In this document: one piece after another, positions 3,991-12,702 of the stretch
Layout: each line of letters starts with the position of its first letter
How positions within the stretch are numbered: position 1 is the stretch's first letter
Assembly (NCBI GenBank): GCA_947167345.1
Contig: CAMVHR010000030.1
Span: forward strand, 1-37,265
Length of the DNA stretch: 37,265 nucleotides
Origin: an uncultured Treponema sp.
GTDB taxonomy: Bacteria > Spirochaetota > Spirochaetia > Treponematales > Treponemataceae
Direction of reading: 5' to 3'
Notes under the pieces: generated by a model
Databases searched by the model: none
What the model saw: the letters and a program-made list of their open reading frames with translations, nothing else
What the model was told of the DNA's origin: nothing
Position numbers and translations under genes: made by a program

Positions 3991-5403
3991 TCATATAACC
4001 TGCTTCTGCTTCCACTTGCCACGTGCAAAACGAGTTACAAAGAATGCAGAGCGTACAATCCAGTCCAAAATCATTGAGATCCATACGCATAAAGAGCCGA
4101 AAGACTTTGGAAGCCCCAGCAAAGACACAAGGCCAAATATCCCCGTAGCCTTAAGCACAAAGCTCATGCCTACGCGCACAGTCCACATGCTAACCATGGA
4201 GACTATCATCGTAAATGCAGAATCTCCTGCAGCACGCAGAGCATTAGGCAGGGTAAAGGACAGTGACCAGATGAATATTCCACAGATACCGTGAATGAGC
4301 GTCATGTACCAGCCAAGACGGGAAGTTTCTTCTGACATTCCGTAAAACAATATTATCCTGTATGAAAAGATCAACAGAGGAACATTCAATATTATAAAAC
4401 CAAAATATGCCGCAGCCATCATCTTTTTTGTATAGCGCACAGCCTGCCCATATTCCTTTGCACCCATACACTGCCCTACAACTGTAAGCATGGCAATGCC
4501 AATAGCATTACCGGGAAGAACTTCAAACGTGGCAAGGGTATTTGCAGCAGCATTGGCAGCAATGGCAGAAGTTCCGAAGGAAGCAATGAGGGACAATACA
4601 AGAATCTTTCCTATCTGAAAGGCAGAACCTTCAAGGCCATTTGGAATTCCGATGCGCATGATTTTCCCTATAAGGTGAAAATCTAAATGCACATGAAAAA
4701 TACCTTTTATGCAGACATCTTTATTTCTGTAAAGGCACACGAAAAGAACCGTTGCAGCCGCCGTCCTAGAAACAAGAGTAGGAACAGCAACACCCTCAAC
4801 CCCCCAGTGCAAACCGTAAATCAAGACGGCATTACCACCAATATTGACAACATTTACAAGAACCGCAATCAACATGCTTATGCGAGAATTTCCCTGAGAG
4901 CGGAATATAGCGGCGGCGGCATTATAAATTGCTATAGCAGGCAGGGCTAAAAGAGTTATAAGGAAATACCTGCAGCTTGCAGACATTACGTCATGCTCAA
5001 CATTACCAAAAATTCCAGAAAGCACCTCCCTATGAAATACCGTACCGATTACGACAAGAAATACAGCTATGGCGGTCGTAGCATACAAAAGCTGCATTGC
5101 AGTCTTCTGAGCCATGGAGGAGCTCTTTCCTCCTATGTATTGGGAACATACTACAGCTCCACCGGTAGCAAGAGCCGCAAATATCTGAAAGATAAGAATG
5201 TTCAGCTGGTCAACAAGAGAAACTCCGCTTACACTAGCCTCTCCCAAAGACGACACCATAATAATGTCCGCCATGCCGAGCGTAATCTGCAAAAGCTGCT
5301 CAACAAGAAGCGGCCATATCAGATGCCACAAGTCACGATTTGAGAACAAAGGAGGGGTAACTTCTATTCCAGTATTATTTGAGCAACCTGTTAAGGGTGA
5401 CAT
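3991..5403 (-). CDS. MATE family multidrug/Na+ (or H+) antiporter
   Basis: A 470-residue polytopic membrane protein with about 12 predicted helices. The N-terminal repeat reads WHLIWPLLVEQLLQITLGMADIIMVS, and the conserved FRSQGNSRISM and LRAAGDSAFTM segments occupy matching places in the two halves, as in MATE (DinF/NorM) exporters. I place the start at the ATG at 5403 because GGAGG (5415 to 5411) lies 7 nt upstream; the longer reading to 5427 would need a TTG. This start lies 29 nt inside the 3' end of era, so the two genes are translationally linked. Substrate unknown. Confidence 0.92.
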   Translation of the reverse strand: MSPLTGCSNNTGIEVTPPLFSNRDLWHLIWPLLVEQLLQITLGMADIIMVSSLGEASVSGVSLVDQLNILIFQIFAALATGGAVVCSQYIGGKSSSMAQKTAMQLLYATTAIAVFLVVIGTVFHREVLSGIFGNVEHDVMSASCRYFLITLLALPAIAIYNAAAAIFRSQGNSRISMLIAVLVNVVNIGGNAVLIYGLHWGVEGVAVPTLVSRTAAATVLFVCLYRNKDVCIKGIFHVHLDFHLIGKIMRIGIPNGLEGSAFQIGKILVLSLIASFGTSAIAANAAANTLATFEVLPGNAIGIAMLTVVGQCMGAKEYGQAVRYTKKMMAAAYFGFIILNVPLLIFSYRIILFYGMSEETSRLGWYMTLIHGICGIFIWSLSFTLPNALRAAGDSAFTMIVSMVSMWTVRVGMSFVLKATGIFGLVSLLGLPKSFGSLCVWISMILDWIVRSAFFVTRFARGKWKQKQVI

Positions 5404-6319
5404 CTTTCTGCCTCCAGTTCTTATCAACCTTTACCTGAAGGTCTATGTCTACGCGATACGGAAAGATTTTCCTGCATTCCTTTATGGACTCCACACGTAT
5501 AGTCTTTATCATGGAAGCTCCCTTTCCGATTACAATACCTTTCTGGCTTTCGCGCTCAACGCAAAGGCTTGCACGAACTTTTAAGAGATTGGACTTTTCC
5601 ATCTTCATATCTTCTACACGCACATAGATTGCATGCGGCAGTTCCTGTTCCAAACGATTTATTGCCTGTCCACGAATAATTTCAGCAATGCGGAAGTCTA
5701 CTTCCTGATCCGTATAAAATTCTTCCGGGTACAAGTGAGGGGCTTCAGGTGCAAGCTCATACAGGGCTTTTAGAACGTCATTTACATTTACGTCATCCTT
5801 TGCACTCATTTCAACAATCCGTGAAGCCGGAAAATTTGCAAAGGCAGTCTGAACAAACTCACGTGCCAAAGACGGATTTGCACGAGGATCTTCCGTCTTG
5901 TTTATGGCTATGACAAGCTTGTCTATATAAGGTTTTGTCATTGAAGCTATCATTTCTTCTTCAGAACCATGGTCACGAGTTGCGTCTATTATATAAAGGA
6001 TTGCATCGCTGTCTTTCATCTGGTCGGCAGCAATCTGCGTAAGCCTGATGTTCAGTTTTTTGTCGCTTTCGTGCAGTCCGGGCGTATCCACAAAGACAAG
6101 CTGTCCTAAAGATGTGTTTACAATACCGCGGATTGCATTGCGAGTGGTCTGTGGCACAGAGGAAACTATGCTTATTTTTTCTCCGCTTGCCGTATTCAAG
6201 AATGTAGACTTGCCCACAGAAGGACGACCTATGACAGAAACCATTGCAGTTTTAGGTCCTACCGGAGGCAGTTCTTCTTCGGGCAAAAGCTCGTCAGGCG
6301 ATTGTATGTTCATATTCAT
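5375..6319 (-). CDS. era: GTPase Era
   Basis: Essential GTPase that binds the 3' end of 16S rRNA during 30S assembly. With the ATG at 6319 the protein has 314 residues. It shows the P-loop GRPSVGKS (about 31-38), switch I PQTTR, DTPGLH (G3), NKTE (G4, where Era proteins more often have NKxD) and SAKD (G5). A C-terminal KH domain follows with the VIGKGASMIKTI RNA-binding loop. About 20 extra acidic residues (DELLPEEELPP) precede the G domain. A TATAAT box (6332 to 6327) ends 7 nt before this ATG and no ribosome site is present, so translation is probably leaderless. An upstream in-frame ATG at 6328 overlaps the -10 box and is unlikely. Confidence 0.95.
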   Translation of the reverse strand: MNMNIQSPDELLPEEELPPVGPKTAMVSVIGRPSVGKSTFLNTASGEKISIVSSVPQTTRNAIRGIVNTSLGQLVFVDTPGLHESDKKLNIRLTQIAADQMKDSDAILYIIDATRDHGSEEEMIASMTKPYIDKLVIAINKTEDPRANPSLAREFVQTAFANFPASRIVEMSAKDDVNVNDVLKALYELAPEAPHLYPEEFYTDQEVDFRIAEIIRGQAINRLEQELPHAIYVRVEDMKMEKSNLLKVRASLCVERESQKGIVIGKGASMIKTIRVESIKECRKIFPYRVDIDLQVKVDKNWRQKDVTLNRLLK

Positions 6320-6326
6320 GCATACC

Positions 6327-6356
6327 ATTATAGAACACAACCGCCACCCCATGCAA
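6327..6356 (-). promoter_or_regulatory. era promoter, leaderless arrangement
   Basis: TTGCAT (6356 to 6351), an 18-nt spacer and TATAAT (6332 to 6327) on the minus strand. The predicted +1 is at about 6320, one base before the ATG at 6319. It would make era transcription independent of the nitrogenase-like operon upstream. Confidence 0.55.
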
Positions 6357-6392
6357 CATGAAATGTCAACGTACTACGACAGGATAGAATTG

Positions 6393-6776
6393 TCAAAACA
6401 CATGAGATTCCCTTTTTTTATGTCTGACAAAATATTGATTGAGTTTTGTCATTGCCTCATCCAACGAAAAGGGAGCCTCAATACAGTTGACATTGTTTTC
6501 CTGAAGCATTCTGTGGGGCTTTGGTCCGATTTTTGCCACAAGAAAATACGTGCAGTCACTTACAGCCTGCCCTACTTTCACAGCAAAATCGCTACCGCAG
6601 GAACACCCACTTTCACAGGCTTCTTTTTCAGGCTCCCTAAGAATATTGCGATTTTCAATAAAACTGAAACTCCCGTCTGTTTCGTTCACTTCGTAAACCG
6701 AAAGGCTCTCAATTTCACCAAAGTGAAGGTCTATGTTTTTTCCATCGGATGTAGCGGCTGCGATTCTGTATGCCAT
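6393..6776 (-). CDS. NifX/NifB-C-type dinitrogenase iron-molybdenum cofactor-binding protein
   Basis: A 127-residue single-domain protein of the family that carries nitrogenase cofactor precursors (NifX, NafY core, C-terminal domain of NifB; PF02579). The diagnostic start is present: MAYRIAAATSDGKNIDLHFG with His18, followed by SLSVYEV. The second signature, VAKIGPKPHRML (80-91), matches the NifB/NifX 'IGPKP' region. A cysteine cluster C54-x3-C58-x-C60 lies between the two signatures and could hold metal. It is the last gene of the operon, 24 nt after the NifK-like gene, with AAGGAG 6 nt before its ATG. Its presence is the best sign that a complex FeS or heterometal cofactor is handled here. 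Family call strong; the exact cofactor is unknown. Confidence 0.88.
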   Translation of the reverse strand: MAYRIAAATSDGKNIDLHFGEIESLSVYEVNETDGSFSFIENRNILREPEKEACESGCSCGSDFAVKVGQAVSDCTYFLVAKIGPKPHRMLQENNVNCIEAPFSLDEAMTKLNQYFVRHKKRESHVF

Positions 6777-6800
6777 AAATTCTCCTTGTCAAACGTTCAC

Positions 6801-8156
6801 CTAAAGAACCTGAACGTTCTTGTCGATTGTTCCGTGCTTGAAGATTCCTGAATAAATTTCTTCCGTAAGCTTAAGTCCTCCTGTATAACCTGCAAAAGTC
6901 TTATTCAGAATGACATCGTTTACAATAGGCATGCTCAAATGAATGAGCATGTTGTTGTTTCTTTTAGCAACGATTTTTTCCCAGGTACTTCCGAAAATCA
7001 CGGCACGCTTTGAAGAACCTATAAGTTCAATCATCTGCTGCTGGATTTTTCCGCCATCACTTTCAAAATAAACCACGTCCTTGATTTCTTTTCCAAGAGT
7101 TTCAATTGTCGAAAGGATTTTTTCCTTTATTGCATCCGTTGGCGGCTCATCTGTGATAAAAATGCCCTTCGGCTGCAAGCCCAGCTCGTTCACAAGGTAA
7201 TCCGTAACTCCGATTGCATATTCAGAATCCGCCACGAGATACAAATCGTTCGGAATGTTGCTTCGGAAATCAGACATAAAGTCAGCAAGCCCTACGATAT
7301 AGCTGTAGAACATGTCTTCTTCGCGCTTGATTACGGCAGAGACATTTTCAAGGTCAAGGTCTGCAAACGCTGCAAGTTTTTTCAGGAACAGGCTTGTAGC
7401 CTTGCCGCCAACAGGAAGGTATGGAAAATGAAAGAATGGAGTTCCATACTTTTTCTTTAAAAGCTCCACAGTAGTTAGACCCACCCATGGGGAAAGCAGT
7501 ATGTTGAACTCTGCATGAGGAATATTTTTCCATTCAAAGACACCAGCACTTTCATAGCCAAAAAGAATATTCACCTTAAGCCCGATGGCAGTCAAAATTC
7601 TCTTGATTTCTCCAAGATCACCACGCCAGAAAGGATTCTGATTTGGAACAACAGCAAACACATTGACAAGCCCTTTACAAACCTTTGGAGTAACATTGCC
7701 CACAAACTGCTCGATAATTGCATTTACAATGACTTCATGACCGTGATAGTTGTTTCCAACAAAGCCTGAGGTCTCTGCTCCAACAACGGGCTTTCCCTCT
7801 TCACGAAATTCATTGGCAACAGAAACAATGTCGTCACCGATGATTCCAGATGTACAACCAGAAAGAAGAACGAATAAATCTGCATCCAAAACCTTAAAGG
7901 CATTTTCCGTCAGGGTGCGCAGCTTGTTTTCTCCGCCGAATACGACTTCCTTAGTGCCTGTGTTGGTACTTGAAATCTGTCCGCCGCCACCATATCCCTC
8001 CCCCTGGTTTCCTGCACACTGGGAAAGAGTCAGAAATGTTTTTGATGCACAGCCAGGTCCAGCATGAACGATTGGCAATGCTCTTGGAATTGCCAACACT
8101 GTTGTCTGTGCTGCAAGTGCACATGAAAATCTTGGTTGTTCAATCAATTTACTCAT
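6801..8156 (-). CDS. Nitrogenase component 1-like protein, NifK/NifN-like subunit
   Basis: A 451-residue member of the oxidoreductase/nitrogenase component 1 family (PF00148). Three cysteines sit where P-cluster ligands are expected: C12, C36 (HAGPGC) and C101 (LSGCTSGIIGDDI). The first two are 24 apart (25 in NifK). The stretch STNTGTKEVVFGGENKLRTL is the family's conserved region before the third cysteine, and there is no long N-terminal extension as in true NifK. Glycine-rich QGEGYGGGGQIS (51-62) is unusual. The ATG overlaps the stop of the NifD-like gene as ATGA, so the two should be made together as a heterodimer or heterotetramer. It may be a reductase subunit or a NifN-like scaffold subunit; sequence alone does not decide. 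Confidence 0.9.
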   Translation of the reverse strand: MSKLIEQPRFSCALAAQTTVLAIPRALPIVHAGPGCASKTFLTLSQCAGNQGEGYGGGGQISSTNTGTKEVVFGGENKLRTLTENAFKVLDADLFVLLSGCTSGIIGDDIVSVANEFREEGKPVVGAETSGFVGNNYHGHEVIVNAIIEQFVGNVTPKVCKGLVNVFAVVPNQNPFWRGDLGEIKRILTAIGLKVNILFGYESAGVFEWKNIPHAEFNILLSPWVGLTTVELLKKKYGTPFFHFPYLPVGGKATSLFLKKLAAFADLDLENVSAVIKREEDMFYSYIVGLADFMSDFRSNIPNDLYLVADSEYAIGVTDYLVNELGLQPKGIFITDEPPTDAIKEKILSTIETLGKEIKDVVYFESDGGKIQQQMIELIGSSKRAVIFGSTWEKIVAKRNNNMLIHLSMPIVNDVILNKTFAGYTGGLKLTEEIYSGIFKHGTIDKNVQVL

Positions 8157-9625
8157 TTTACTTCCGCCTTTTTGTCAAAATAGAATGGATCCTTCTGGTT
8201 AATCCACCATGAACTGTAAGGGAACTTTACATGCTCAGAAATCGTCTTGAAAAATTTGTTTGAATTCAGTGCATCTATAATTCTAGCACCAAGGTTTACA
8301 GAGCCTTCATAGCAACTCAAGACATTTATGTCATTCGCTCTGATTGAAGGAATTCCAAGCTTAGTTCCGATTGTAGCGATTGAATCGTGCCGAGTGATAA
8401 GAATGTCAGGTTTGAGTTCGCTAAAGATTTTGTACATGATGAAAGGCTGCTTGTTGCAGACCGAAAATTTTTCCACGTCACCCGTGTACTTTATCATTTC
8501 GTTAAGTGTGTCAAGCTCGGGACTTTTGTTGTCCGTAGTCTGGTCGTGGTGAAGAGTTGTAACTCCGACAACTTCCATTCCGTATTCCCTAACCATGTTC
8601 GTAAGATAGTGGGCAAACGAGTCGCCGGAATAGACATAGGCTCTCTTGCCTGCAAGAACTTTTTTGTAACCATCGATGATTGGCTTGATTCGTTCGTTTT
8701 CCTCTTTGATAAGCTTTTCGGCAAGCTCTTCTCTGTGCGTAATTTTTGCAAGCTCGCGAAACCAGCGGTCTGTCCATTCGATTCCGTATGGAGAAGACAC
8801 TTTCAACTGAGGAACTCCATAATTCTGTTCAAGGGCTGCCGCTCCGTATGTTCCAAGAGATTCACAGATTGAAATCGTACATGCGGCTTCTGACATTATC
8901 GACAGCTGCTCAACACTTGAATTCGGAACAATGAGATTTGGACGAAGATTGATTCTCTTGAACAAAGCCGTATAGGAATCCTGACCTGCAAAGTTTATGA
9001 TATTAACCAAATCTTCCTGCTTTTTCTGAGGCTTCTTTACAAGTTTCCTAAGGACTCCATGGAAAACGGCATCGAAACCCGAAGTCCATGTTTTTGATTT
9101 AAAGCCCTCGCAGTATATTGGCACCAGAGGGATTCCGAGTGCTTCTTCAAGTTCATCAACAACGCTTTCAATGTCATCGCCAATGATTCCTGCCGCACAT
9201 GAAGAATGAATCAGAATTGCCTTTGGGTTAAAGCGCCTATGAGCCTCAAGAATTGCCTCACGAAGAATTTTCACCCCTCCGTAAACAGTTGAGTCCATTC
9301 CCATGTTGGTAGAAATTACCTGAATTTTCGGAGCTTCAATTCCACGAACCTTGCTAGAAGCCTCGACTCGTTCGTAAATAGAAACCGGTGAAAGACAACC
9401 CAAAGGCGAATGAACAACTATTGCTGCATCCCGAATCATGTAGGAAAGGACTTCTGCACAGCCCTGGGAACAATCACTACACTGCGAGTAGATTCGCTCG
9501 TCATCCTTTACAGCTCTTTTGCTCGAATCTTTTTGCAATGTACTAGCCTTTCCATGAAAAGCAAGCACTGCACCAAGACGGTTGTCACGAGTTTCCACTT
9601 CTGATTTTTTGATATCTATAGCCAC
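8153..9625 (-). CDS. Nitrogenase component 1-like protein, NifD/NifE-like subunit
   Basis: I place the start at a GTG at 9625 because AAGGAG (9638 to 9633) lies 7 nt upstream; this gives 490 residues. Family PF00148. P-cluster-type cysteines are C56 (SQGC, with extra C49 and C52), C77 (HSPLGC) and C143 (HSSCAAGIIGDDIESV). The spacing of 66 between the last two equals NifD Cys88-Cys154. CEGFK (172-176) matches the NifD/NifE motif CEGF. C254 (ISICESLGTYG, before the LEQNYGVP motif) aligns with the FeMo-cofactor ligand Cys275. In the segment after KLGIP, ungapped alignment to the GIPFREMHSW segment of NifD puts N431 at the His442 position. These are eye alignments. It follows the binding-protein gene by 38 nt and overlaps the next gene. 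No nifH is nearby. Confidence 0.9.
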   Translation of the reverse strand: MAIDIKKSEVETRDNRLGAVLAFHGKASTLQKDSSKRAVKDDERIYSQCSDCSQGCAEVLSYMIRDAAIVVHSPLGCLSPVSIYERVEASSKVRGIEAPKIQVISTNMGMDSTVYGGVKILREAILEAHRRFNPKAILIHSSCAAGIIGDDIESVVDELEEALGIPLVPIYCEGFKSKTWTSGFDAVFHGVLRKLVKKPQKKQEDLVNIINFAGQDSYTALFKRINLRPNLIVPNSSVEQLSIMSEAACTISICESLGTYGAAALEQNYGVPQLKVSSPYGIEWTDRWFRELAKITHREELAEKLIKEENERIKPIIDGYKKVLAGKRAYVYSGDSFAHYLTNMVREYGMEVVGVTTLHHDQTTDNKSPELDTLNEMIKYTGDVEKFSVCNKQPFIMYKIFSELKPDILITRHDSIATIGTKLGIPSIRANDINVLSCYEGSVNLGARIIDALNSNKFFKTISEHVKFPYSSWWINQKDPFYFDKKAEVK

Positions 9626-9663
9626 TTTAGATCTCCTTATCTTTTGATTCACACCTAATCAGA

Positions 9664-10758
9664 TTAAATTTTCTCGTAATTGAATCCAGGAAACTTATTG
9701 TCGTTGGCAAGGAAATATGCCCACATGTCTTTGTAAAACGACTCACTAGGGAATTCTTTTATTATCTCACTCAAAGCTTCTGCATAAACATCAATATTGA
9801 AGAATTCATGCAGCTGTGCATGAGACTCTATGTAGTTCCAGCCAGTAAGGATTTCATAAATCGAAAGAACACCATTGTAATTCGGATCAGGATTGTAAGA
9901 ACGGTCTCCGTTTGATTCCTTTTCATAAATGTAGCGCTTAATGTAACCAGTATCTTCTCCAGTAAGGCGTGCAAGGCTTTCAATTGCCTCAGCAGGATTC
10001 GTCACATAATCTTTGTAAGCCCTAATCTGGCCTTTGAGGTATGCTTTGTACGCATCCTTGTTCTTGTCAAAAGAAGGACTGTATGCATACTGTCTGCAGC
10101 AAACATAATCTTTCTGGAGCTGGGTAAGGTGGAACAAGTGTTCAAGCCCTATCGAACGAGCTGCATCAAGATACTCAGAAGAAATGAGTCCAATATCCAG
10201 AGTGCCCTTTGCTACTGCTGCAGAAATCGAAGGATAGCCATCGATAATCCTATAATTTATATCTTCGCCAACCTTATAGCCGTAATAATTGCCAAGAGAA
10301 GCTTTGGAAACCATTTCTGCCGTCGAAAGATGGATGACACCGATTGTCTTGCCTTTCCAGTTTTTGGGATCACGCAGAAATTCCGCATCCTCTTTTCTTG
10401 CCACAACCTCCATTCCACCAGAAAGAGTTCCAGCAAAAATCGTAACATTTGCACCCTGTGCCCCGTAACTGATTGGCGGTATAATCTGCTCATAGGCGGC
10501 ATCAAGCTTTCCGGCTGTCAGAGCCTCGGGAGTACCTATCATTTCCAGCGTTATGTAGTTTGGCTTGAATTTATATGCTTCAAAATACCCTTTTTCCTGA
10601 GCAATCTGTATGAGTGGATTGACCACCTTGTTTGGCGTAACAGCAATGTTGAATGAAAGATATTCATCCTGATTTTTTTTACCGCCGCAAGACGTAAAAA
10701 GAGTTCCCAACAGCAAAAGGGTACCTGTTGCCAAAGCAAAAGATTTTTTAACATTCAT
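9664..10758 (-). CDS. ABC transporter substrate-binding lipoprotein, NitT/TauT (NMT1/SsuA-like) type
   Basis: A 364-residue lipoprotein: MNVKKSF, a hydrophobic stretch and the lipobox LFTSC with the acylated Cys at residue 24. The mature part begins with IAVTPNKVVNPLIQIAQEKGYFEAY, the usual start of nitrate/sulfonate/taurine or thiamine-precursor binding proteins. GTPEALTAGKLDAAY and GVIHLSTAEMVSKASL follow in the order expected for this fold. It should capture a small anionic or heteroatom-containing organic solute outside the membrane. The ATG at 10758 is chosen because AAGGAG is 9 nt upstream and the signal peptide then begins correctly. It lies between the permease and the NifD-like gene, so the importer and reductase-like genes are one transcription unit. 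Substrate unknown. Confidence 0.9.
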   Translation of the reverse strand: MNVKKSFALATGTLLLLGTLFTSCGGKKNQDEYLSFNIAVTPNKVVNPLIQIAQEKGYFEAYKFKPNYITLEMIGTPEALTAGKLDAAYEQIIPPISYGAQGANVTIFAGTLSGGMEVVARKEDAEFLRDPKNWKGKTIGVIHLSTAEMVSKASLGNYYGYKVGEDINYRIIDGYPSISAAVAKGTLDIGLISSEYLDAARSIGLEHLFHLTQLQKDYVCCRQYAYSPSFDKNKDAYKAYLKGQIRAYKDYVTNPAEAIESLARLTGEDTGYIKRYIYEKESNGDRSYNPDPNYNGVLSIYEILTGWNYIESHAQLHEFFNIDVYAEALSEIIKEFPSESFYKDMWAYFLANDNKFPGFNYEKI

Positions 10759-10802
10759 AGTAATTAACTCCTTACACATTTAGATGGCAAACCGAAGTTG
10801 CC

Positions 10803-11744
10803 TTAGTATTTCCATTTTATAAGTTTCTTTTTAGCCGTATTTATGACTCCGTTTAAGATTGTGACAACAAAGCCAATGAAGAATATTCCTGCAATAGCCT
10901 TCGTGTAGTTTGCATAGTTGAGCGACATGCGCACATAAAATCCCATTCCGCTGTCAGCACCAAGCATTTCAGCAGCAGTAAGCGTCATAAGGGCAGAAGC
11001 AAGCTGAATTGGAAGTCCGTTGATAATTCGAGGCAAATTGAACGGAATAATAATCCTGAACAAAATGACTGGTGTTGAAAGATTGAGTACTTTCGCAGAA
11101 TTCACGATTTTTCCTTCGACAAAGGCAGTATTGTTGATTGAGCCCATGAAGGAACTCCAAAAGTTCGTAAGAAAAATCACGAAAATTGATGCCATTCGGA
11201 ATGTTGGCATTATCAGAACCACATAAGGCGTGTAAATAAGCGGAGGTACTGTTGAAACAGCCTTTGCAATCGGATACACAGCCTTCGTAAGACGGGAATT
11301 CCATCCAACGAGGGTTCCGAGAATAACAGCACTCGCTATTGCACTGGTCATGCCGACAATCAAAAGATACATTGAGCTGAAAAAACCTGTGACTATAAGT
11401 TTCCAGTCCTGCACGAACACATGGAATACATTTTCAAGAGCCGGAACGAACACAAACGGAAAAAGATTCAGCCTGGACACAAGAAATTCCCATATAAAGG
11501 CAACAAAAAAGACGAAACCCGCAATGTCCCTTGCAGACCGCCATTTTTTTTCGTTCCGTGACTGAAACAAGAAGAACAGTTCCGAGGCACAAAGGACAAC
11601 TGAAAAAACAAACGGACTTTTCAAGCCAATTCGCATTTCTGCAGCATACTTACTTGGCAGCAAAAAACAGGCAAATGTGAGTACGAAAAACAAATTCGCG
11701 GCATTAAAAACTACATCACGCAAAACCTTTCTTTTTTCAATCAT
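10803..11744 (-). CDS. ABC transporter permease, NitT/TauT type
   Basis: A 313-residue inner-membrane permease with about 6-7 helices. The binding-protein-dependent transport motif is near the C-terminus ([20 protein letters not shown], then [14 protein letters not shown]), close to the EAA-loop pattern of SsuC/TauC permeases. [17 protein letters not shown] is the conserved segment of the core domain. The ATG overlaps the ATPase stop (ATGA), and GGAGGTGA lies 8 nt upstream. The binding-protein gene starts 44 nt downstream. Together with the ATPase and lipoprotein it forms a complete importer. Confidence 0.92.
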
Positions 11745-12556
11745 ATAGATTCACCTCCAGGCTGAACGACATTATGGTCTCCTTCGTAGAACAGGTTTTT
11801 CAGCTTGTCGTTTATCTCGCTGTATTCCTTGCACATGTAGACATCTTTTCGTGTCCTTGGACGGGGTATTTTCACATCAATAACTTCGTGAATTTCCTTA
11901 GGCAGCATGAACACGATTCTGTCAGCAAGGAAAATTGCCTCACTCAAATCATGAGTGACAAATATGACGGTCTTTTTCTTTTCATCAGTCCGCCACAGTT
12001 TCAAAAGAAGTTCCTGCAAGTTCTCGCGGATTTTTGCATCAAGAGCACCAAAAGGTTCGTCCATCAGCAGGATTTTCGGATTGCAGGCAAGTGCGCGTGC
12101 AATTGCAACTCGCTGCTGCATTCCTCCTGAGAGCAGTCCAGGAAGCTTGTTCTCAAAGCCTTTTAAATCAACTTTTTCCAAAAATTCCTGAGCTATTTCA
12201 AGAGATTCCTTTTTGCTCAATTTGCGTGTTTTTTTGTTCGTTTCATATACAGCAAATGCAATGTTCTGCTTTGCCGTCATCCACGGAAAAAGAGAATAGT
12301 GCTGAAAAACTACGGCACGTTCTGTCCCTGGACCAGTCACTTGCTTTCCGTTTATGAGTACTTCACCCGACGAAGCCTTGTTCAGCCCTTCAAGCACACT
12401 GAGCAAAGTTGATTTTCCACAACCAGAAGAACCGACAATACAAATGAATTCCCCTTCGTTTATGGAAAGATTTATATCTTTGAGAGCTGTATATGAAATC
12501 TCATCGTTTTCATAAGTCAAGTTAAGGTTTTTGATTTCGATTATCGACTCACTCAT
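11741..12556 (-). CDS. ABC transporter ATP-binding protein, NitT/TauT type
   Basis: A 271-residue ATPase with all motifs: Walker [10 protein letters not shown] (about 42-50), Q-loop [11 protein letters not shown], signature [15 protein letters not shown], Walker [13 protein letters not shown] and H-loop [10 protein letters not shown]. The Q-loop 'FPWMT' and the [18 protein letters not shown] tail are typical of SsuB/TauB/NrtD ATPases. It is the first gene of the six-gene operon. The start at 12556 is chosen over the upstream in-frame codon at 12580 because GGGAGGAG lies directly upstream. It energises import by the permease encoded next. Confidence 0.94.
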
Positions 12557-12662
12557 GTTCTCCTCCCAGCACACATTCATATATATATATTTTTTCTAAA
12601 ACTTTGCCTAATACAATTTTCCTTTATGGGGAATAGCTTTTTCTTATAGCTCTGAGTAAGTG
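12557..12662 (-). promoter_or_regulatory. Leader/promoter region of the nitrogenase-like operon
   Basis: This stretch lies between the terminator of the flavin reductase gene and the first operon gene and must hold the operon's control elements. It contains an AT dinucleotide run (about 12577-12590) and an inverted TTCC/GGAA pair with a 7-nt spacer (12619-12633). I find no convincing -35/-10 pair and no GG-N10-GC sigma54 site. That is compatible with an activator-dependent promoter, but this is inference. Confidence 0.3.
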
Positions 12663-12702
12663 AAAAAAAAAGTGCCGCAAGCACTGCTCATGCTTACGGC
12701 AC
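12663..12702 (-). terminator. Rho-independent terminator of the flavin reductase gene
   Basis: The arms GTGCCGCAAGCA (12672-12683) and TGCTTACGGCAC (12691-12702) pair over 12 positions with one C/A mismatch around a 7-nt loop. A-runs flank both sides, so on the minus strand the hairpin is followed by nine T. It could also work on the plus strand. It separates the flavin reductase transcript from the nitrogenase-like operon. Confidence 0.85.

Follow-up and report, generated by a model that had tools for sequence, protein, structure and literature searches.

A Mar-like reductase and a NitT/TauT-type importer in one Treponema operon: a probable route for scavenging organic sulfur

The six-gene operon and its importer

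The stretch of DNA analysed here, which we call the window, is positions 1 to 37,265 of contig CAMVHR010000030.1 of an uncultured, rumen-type Treponema sp. (GCA_947167345.1), and all positions are those of the whole window. On its minus strand six genes form an operon that joins an importer to a nitrogenase-like enzyme resembling the methylthio-alkane reductase (Mar) of Rhodospirillum rubrum. In order, they encode a NitT/TauT-type ABC importer ATPase (11741..12556, PF00005), its permease (10803..11744, PF00528), a substrate-binding lipoprotein of NMT1 type with the SsuA/TauA/NrtA fold (9664..10779, PF09084), a Mar-like D subunit that is catalytic by assignment (8153..9652, PF00148), a Mar-like K subunit (6801..8156, PF00148) and a NifX-like cluster-carrier protein (6393..6776, PF02579). 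An earlier note on this DNA had described the same operon, and its coordinates and families are correct: the ATPase and permease genes overlap by 4 nt, as do those for D and K, and the remaining gaps are 11-24 nt. The NifX-like protein matches PF02579 with an E-value of 7e-12 (46 bits, cut-off 26.3); the NifX equivalog and NifB C-terminal models also match it, below cut-off.

The note had also placed a terminator upstream of the operon, and it is there. A strong intrinsic terminator of the upstream flavin-reductase-like gene (12672..12702, running 12702-12672 on the minus strand; 13-pair stem, 5-nt loop, T9 tail) stands between that gene and the six; across the region the total count of terminator-like sites is at the chance level. 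The ATPase open reading frame opens at 12580, and the start is most likely at the ATG at 12556 since the Shine-Dalgarno sequence GGGAGGAG sits before it. At the other end, era (5375-6392) begins 40 nt past the NifX-like gene and no terminator was detected between them, so era may be co-transcribed with the operon. Against the nearest relatives, the ratio of nonsynonymous to synonymous substitution is about 0.02-0.04 for D and K and 0.05-0.12 for the remaining genes where it could be calculated. Such low values indicate that the operon is maintained by selection, which is strongly purifying for D and K.

The importer is complete within the operon, with all three of its families present. The best NCBIfam matches of the ATPase are ntrCD and SaoA, below cut-off, and the permease scores 84 bits with ntrB and 63 bits with TauC, each below cut-off. 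An AlphaFold2 model of the binding lipoprotein (pLDDT 89) matches the structures of CmpA (Z 26), SsuA (Z 24), NrtA, TauA and Thi5 alike, so the ligand class is not readable from the fold. The earlier note had argued that a binding protein of the SsuA/NMT1 class makes a metal oxyanion less likely. The protein does match the SsuA/TauA/NrtA fold class, and we do not favour import of a metal oxyanion, with the caveat that a fold match does not fix the ligand.

The binding protein shares its fold with SsuABC, TauABC and NrtABCD, and the permease and ATPase share their families. It differs from them in being linked to a nitrogenase-like enzyme rather than an oxygenase, and in having a vicinal cysteine pair, Cys227-Cys228 (codons at 10096..10101, minus strand). 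The pair opens a strand, residues 226-233, which from the topology of the model would run along the ligand cleft. Of 62 related binding proteins encoded near Mar-like loci, 61 have the pair, including ones less than 20% identical to the window's, and the remaining one is truncated. None of 24 background NMT1 proteins from this bacterial family has it at the aligned position. It is not a mark of all Mar-linked binding proteins; it is missing from a second family of them, encoded near Mar-like genes in termite-gut Treponema and in some Clostridium.

Identity of the D and K subunits

A phmmer search of the PDB puts the R. rubrum methylthio-alkane reductase chains on top for both subunits, at E 1e-125 for D (best nitrogenase chain 1e-35) and 3e-121 for K (best nitrogenase chain 2e-21). 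The curated models for nitrogenase fall far short: on D, nifD gives 128.7 bits against a cut-off of 653.55 and NifE 168 against 505, and on K, nifK gives 75.8 against 427.3. The ligands point the same way. All six P-cluster cysteines are kept, three in D and three in K, and the three in K are invariant across 58 sequences. In the residue numbering of the R. rubrum MarD structure paper (PMC12552129), D retains the equivalents of Cys270, Trp195, Phe199, His375, Arg428 and His429. The last two, Arg421-His422 of the window protein by alignment (codons at 8387..8392, minus strand), include a cluster ligand by the role given in that paper and have been proposed as the hallmark that divides Mar from nitrogenase (PMC12552129).

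The D tree places the window's subunit in a clade of 22 rows (support 100/100), whose members come from Treponema, Lachnospiraceae and other gut bacteria; R. rubrum MarD lies in a different 4-row clade (100/100). Both sit within a 35-row clade (100/98), and a 41-row clade (100/100) adds the D of a second type found in the window's own genome, on contig C15. Arg428-His429 is present in every row of the 41-row clade. The K tree agrees in separating the window-type and Mar clades. Thus D and K group with MarD and MarK in well supported clades apart from NifD, NifE and NifK and from VnfD, VnfE and VnfN, yet the window's subunits fall outside the strict clade of R. rubrum MarD and MarK. Since the branches to the nitrogenase outgroup are long, it is uncertain how deep the root lies; the division of D into a window type and an R. 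rubrum type is independent of the rooting.

We assign D and K, by sequence, as Mar-like and not as NifDK or NifEN. With Mo-nitrogenase NifDK and the scaffold NifEN they share the PF00148 fold and the P-cluster cysteines; they differ in that the histidine ligand of the cluster is supplied by the Mar loop and not by the NifD loop, in scoring far under the NifD and NifE cut-offs, and in having no NifV or NifEN alongside. Model scores, ligands and gene content exclude a canonical nitrogenase or scaffold identity. The earlier note had asked for a phylogeny of both subunits and had staked its reading on their lying outside canonical NifDK and NifEN; they do lie outside both, near Mar though not within the characterised-Mar clade, and the genome yielded no canonical nif set.

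Partner genes, relatives and a candidate sulfur operator

The operon contains no reductase gene (H) and no cluster-building gene (B), so it would rely on genes elsewhere. The genome is 3.2 Mb and about 96% complete. It has two NifH-like genes and eight PF00148 genes in pairs: the window's, one on C15, one on C17 and a more distant one on C59. Contig C15 reads, in order, CysK, NifB-like radical SAM enzyme, NifH, NifX, K, D, NitT permease, binding protein, DUF4418, FtsX, ABC ATPase, CysK, NitT ATPase, a gene of no assigned function, a CysK/CBS-type gene, a MetB/cystathionine-lyase-type gene and the C-S lyase PatB. Its NifB-like and NifH genes are a close pair, MarB-like and MarH-like. On C17 a LysR gene is followed by D, K, a binding protein 42% identical to the window's and a flavin mononucleotide (FMN) reductase. 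The genome has about four strong CysK-type and two strong MetB/MetY-type genes, and contig C57 encodes an O-acetylhomoserine sulfhydrylase that scores above its cut-off. Neither sulfite reductase nor ATP sulfurylase was found in this 96% complete genome. No NifV scored above its cut-off, and NifEN was not found; there are only the Mar-like pairs and one more distant HDK set.

The arrangement is not peculiar to this genome. The survey of other genomes that the earlier note called for finds the exact six-gene order in Treponema ruminis, T. saccharophilum and seven further Treponema-type genomes, nine in all, so the importer is linked in relatives too. The order is unchanged at 75-95% D identity, where synonymous sites are saturated. 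T. saccharophilum JCM 32279 has it on a plasmid, the 382-kb pTS2, with O-acetylhomoserine sulfhydrylase, CysK, NifB-like, NifX, NifH and a second DK pair all less than 20 kb from the operon. Because the whole cluster (locus L169, 4257-23253) is on a plasmid, it may be able to spread by horizontal transfer. In genome G090 the same order lies within a 48-kb island with MetE, MetF, PatB, CysK, MetNIQ, an M20 hydrolase and two further DK pairs. Related DK pairs in Bacillota usually stand beside an amino-acid-type importer plus CysK, MetY and PatB.

We surveyed 66 D genes, non-redundant at 90% identity and each with at least 12 kb of flank, labelling neighbours by best BLAST match to a labelled set. 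A sulfur amino-acid gene lies within 10 kb of D in 51 of these loci and a same-strand importer within 5 kb in 35, counts that are not independent since the loci share ancestry. A Mar-like D is present in 52 of 195 genomes of the family, and 51 of these 52 have in addition a NifH close to that of C15 (two tables compared by hand); the lone exception is 76% complete.

Upstream regions read side by side have a 17-bp dyad in common, CCTAnTnnnnnAnTAGG. With up to 3 mismatches to CCTATTGATTAAGTAGG there are 59 sites in 896 kb of loci, a set that contains some duplicate loci, against 3 in shuffled sequence. Most lie within 130 bp of a start codon, and they often come as pairs with a spacing of 36-45 bp. 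Counted over whole genomes, exact copies of the pattern number 10-16 in five relatives that carry Mar-like genes, 3 in each of G000 and G084, and 0-1 in two genomes without Mar-like D; a reversed control gives 0-2. In Mar-carrying Treponema the dyad is upstream of DK, MarH, MarB, CysK, MetY, PatB, MetQ and importer genes. Outside the islands it precedes MetY, CysK, PatB, MarB, MarH, MetQ and importer genes, and some sites precede genes with no evident link to sulfur or Mar. A LysR gene is often near the dyad-bearing loci. The sites are in loci L055-L061, L074-L092 and L169, and in the window's own genome at C15:29701, C15:42124, C17:8746 and C62:5202. Six relatives have the dyad just ahead of their window-type operon, 10-45 bp before its first gene by distances calculated from coordinates: G090, G099, G100, G186, RGIG756 and T. 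saccharophilum (with mismatches in the last). We regard it as a candidate sulfur operator.

What the operon may do

We believe the operon probably serves the uptake and reductive C-S cleavage of one organic sulfur compound for sulfur scavenging. The lipoprotein would bind the compound, and the permease and ATPase would import it. A D2K2 enzyme with a P-cluster and an [Fe8S9C]-type cluster would then cleave the C-S bond, with electrons from the NifH/MarH-type reductase on C15 and the cluster from the NifB/MarB-type radical SAM enzyme on the same contig; delivery of the cluster to D is probably the task of the NifX-like protein. The thiol or sulfide released would pass to cysteine or methionine via CysK, O-acetylhomoserine sulfhydrylase and related enzymes. 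The coupling of import to reduction is something we infer from gene order, and the clusters, the sharing of H and B, the direction of transport, the breaking of the C-S bond and the class of substrate are likewise predictions from sequence and context. The earlier note had expected a reductase outside N2 fixation acting on an imported organic solute, with Mar as one example. Comparison, trees, ligands, neighbourhood and operator agree with it.

Several points weigh against this. The pocket residues Cys73, Gln74 and His194 of MarD are Val, Leu and Thr in the window's D, and because these residues face the cluster the chemistry could differ from that of MarD (position 194 is His solely in the R. 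rubrum clade of the D tree). The operon has no sulfur gene of its own, as well as no H or B, and its immediate neighbours, MATE, era, the flavin reductase and ABC-F, are unrelated. A weight-matrix search of the window found no copy of the dyad at the operon, so it may be regulated differently or may have lost this control.

The system shares with R. rubrum MarBHDK (PDB 9fmg, 9d9u) the subunit architecture, the P-cluster cysteines, Cys270, Arg428-His429, Trp195, Phe199 and His375, and a link to anaerobic sulfur salvage, and Mar, the enzyme defined by reduction of methylthio-alkanes to methanethiol and hydrocarbons, is its closest match. It differs in its separate clade, in a D identity of about 43%, in the replaced pocket residues, and in an operon that has a dedicated importer and an attached NifX-like gene and lacks H and B. 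We file it as a variant of Mar rather than as Mar itself since it falls outside the strict clade, its pocket residues differ and H and B are absent from the operon.

The alternative that survives best keeps import and reduction and changes the bond, the substrate being a sulfonate, a sulfoxide, a disulfide, a C-Se or C-N compound or an aromatic one. We consider this unlikely but worth taking seriously. The importer family spans sulfonates, taurine, nitrate, bicarbonate and pyrimidines, and the pocket is unlike that of MarD. The sulfur context and the operator across relatives argue against it. We favour a non-volatile thioether-type compound over a sulfonate because cleavage of a sulfonate would release sulfite and no sulfite reductase was found, an argument that has little force should a sulfite reductase be encoded in the 4% of the genome that is missing.

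The attached NifX-like gene recalls nifENX, and three Mar-like DK pairs share the genome with one MarB, so the window's D, K and X could instead be a cofactor scaffold or maturase for the other two DK enzymes. This seems to us improbable. The importer linkage in nine relatives speaks against it, as do the low NifE score and the retention in D of the buried-site ligands Arg428-His429 and Cys270, as in catalytic MarD. In addition, R. rubrum marBHDK alone gave an active enzyme in a heterologous host (PMC12552129).

We give still less credence to a nitrogenase that dispenses with NifEN, which is the proposal made for group IV-A NfaDK in Endomicrobium proavitum. Incorporation of 15N2 has been reported for that organism, whose only nif-like genes are of group IV-A, as cited in PMC9147875. 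The window's genome, with no NifV above cut-off and no NifEN, does not fit. At the positions of NifD Gln191 and His195 the window's D has Trp and Phe, as MarD does, and MarDK, whose ligands are the same, does not reduce N2 (PMC12552129). Two Endomicrobium D homologues (E. proavitum itself was not identified in the data) have the Mar hallmark and lie near CysK, PatB or MetY-type genes. Finally, the idea that importer and reductase are mere neighbours can point to an importer type that varies by lineage (NitT in Treponema, amino-acid type in Bacillota), but the 4-nt overlaps and 11-24 nt gaps, the identical order across saturated synonymous sites and the importer near 35 of 66 related loci make it the least credible of all.

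Returning to C-S cleavage for sulfur scavenging, a broader proposal can be offered tentatively, and we would not yet bet on it. The window type may be a distinct lineage of C-S reductases for non-volatile organic sulfur taken up by dedicated importers. Several DK pairs that differ in substrate would then draw on a single MarH and a single MarB, all controlled through one sulfur operator, and the vicinal cysteine pair would aid substrate recognition. Parts of this have precedents. Group IV-A, MarHDK-like genes near type I mlp clusters have already been linked to sulfur genes and share the sulfur amino-acid context (MetY, CysK) with the window type; they are placed with corrinoid methyltransferase clusters, and the parts of PMC10418091 on which we rely describe no dedicated importer that we found. 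Heliobacteria have several NflDK copies, one of them read as Mar (PMC9147875). In the open-access literature, the scope of our search, we found no report of a dedicated importer for a Mar-like enzyme or of this operator. Within that literature R. rubrum Mar is the only characterised enzyme with a P-cluster and an [Fe8S9C] cluster outside the nitrogenases.

The operon suggests that anaerobes of the rumen and gut have a broad second lineage of such enzymes, and the importer, the binding protein, the altered pocket and the operator are each a handle on its substrate. If our reading is true, it would explain how gut bacteria without sulfite reductase could obtain sulfur from organic compounds, possibly releasing small hydrocarbons, and it would supply a set of related enzymes in which to ask how chemistry at one and the same cluster is determined by the surrounding protein.

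Some observations at other loci can be set beside these. A more distant NifHDK-like set on C59 (L017 4807-12211) lies beside a FecCD permease, an ABC ATPase and two Peripla_BP_2 genes, another nitrogenase-like enzyme adjoining an importer. A further DK lineage in or near the sulfur islands is found at L056 1159-3929, with similar pairs at L061, L065 and L074; the D representatives of L056 and L074 in the tree keep the P-cluster cysteines and Cys270 and lack Arg428-His429. In 277 kb of these loci no S-adenosylmethionine riboswitch or T-box control was matched at the Rfam gathering cut-off, and the sole match was a cobalamin riboswitch (L015 1931-2132) about 6 kb upstream of the C15 cluster. On contig C62 of the window's own genome (L226 1148-2158) a dyad site precedes a gene adjoining an amino-acid-type binding protein. 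The start of that gene seems to resemble uroporphyrinogen-decarboxylase-type methyltransferases.

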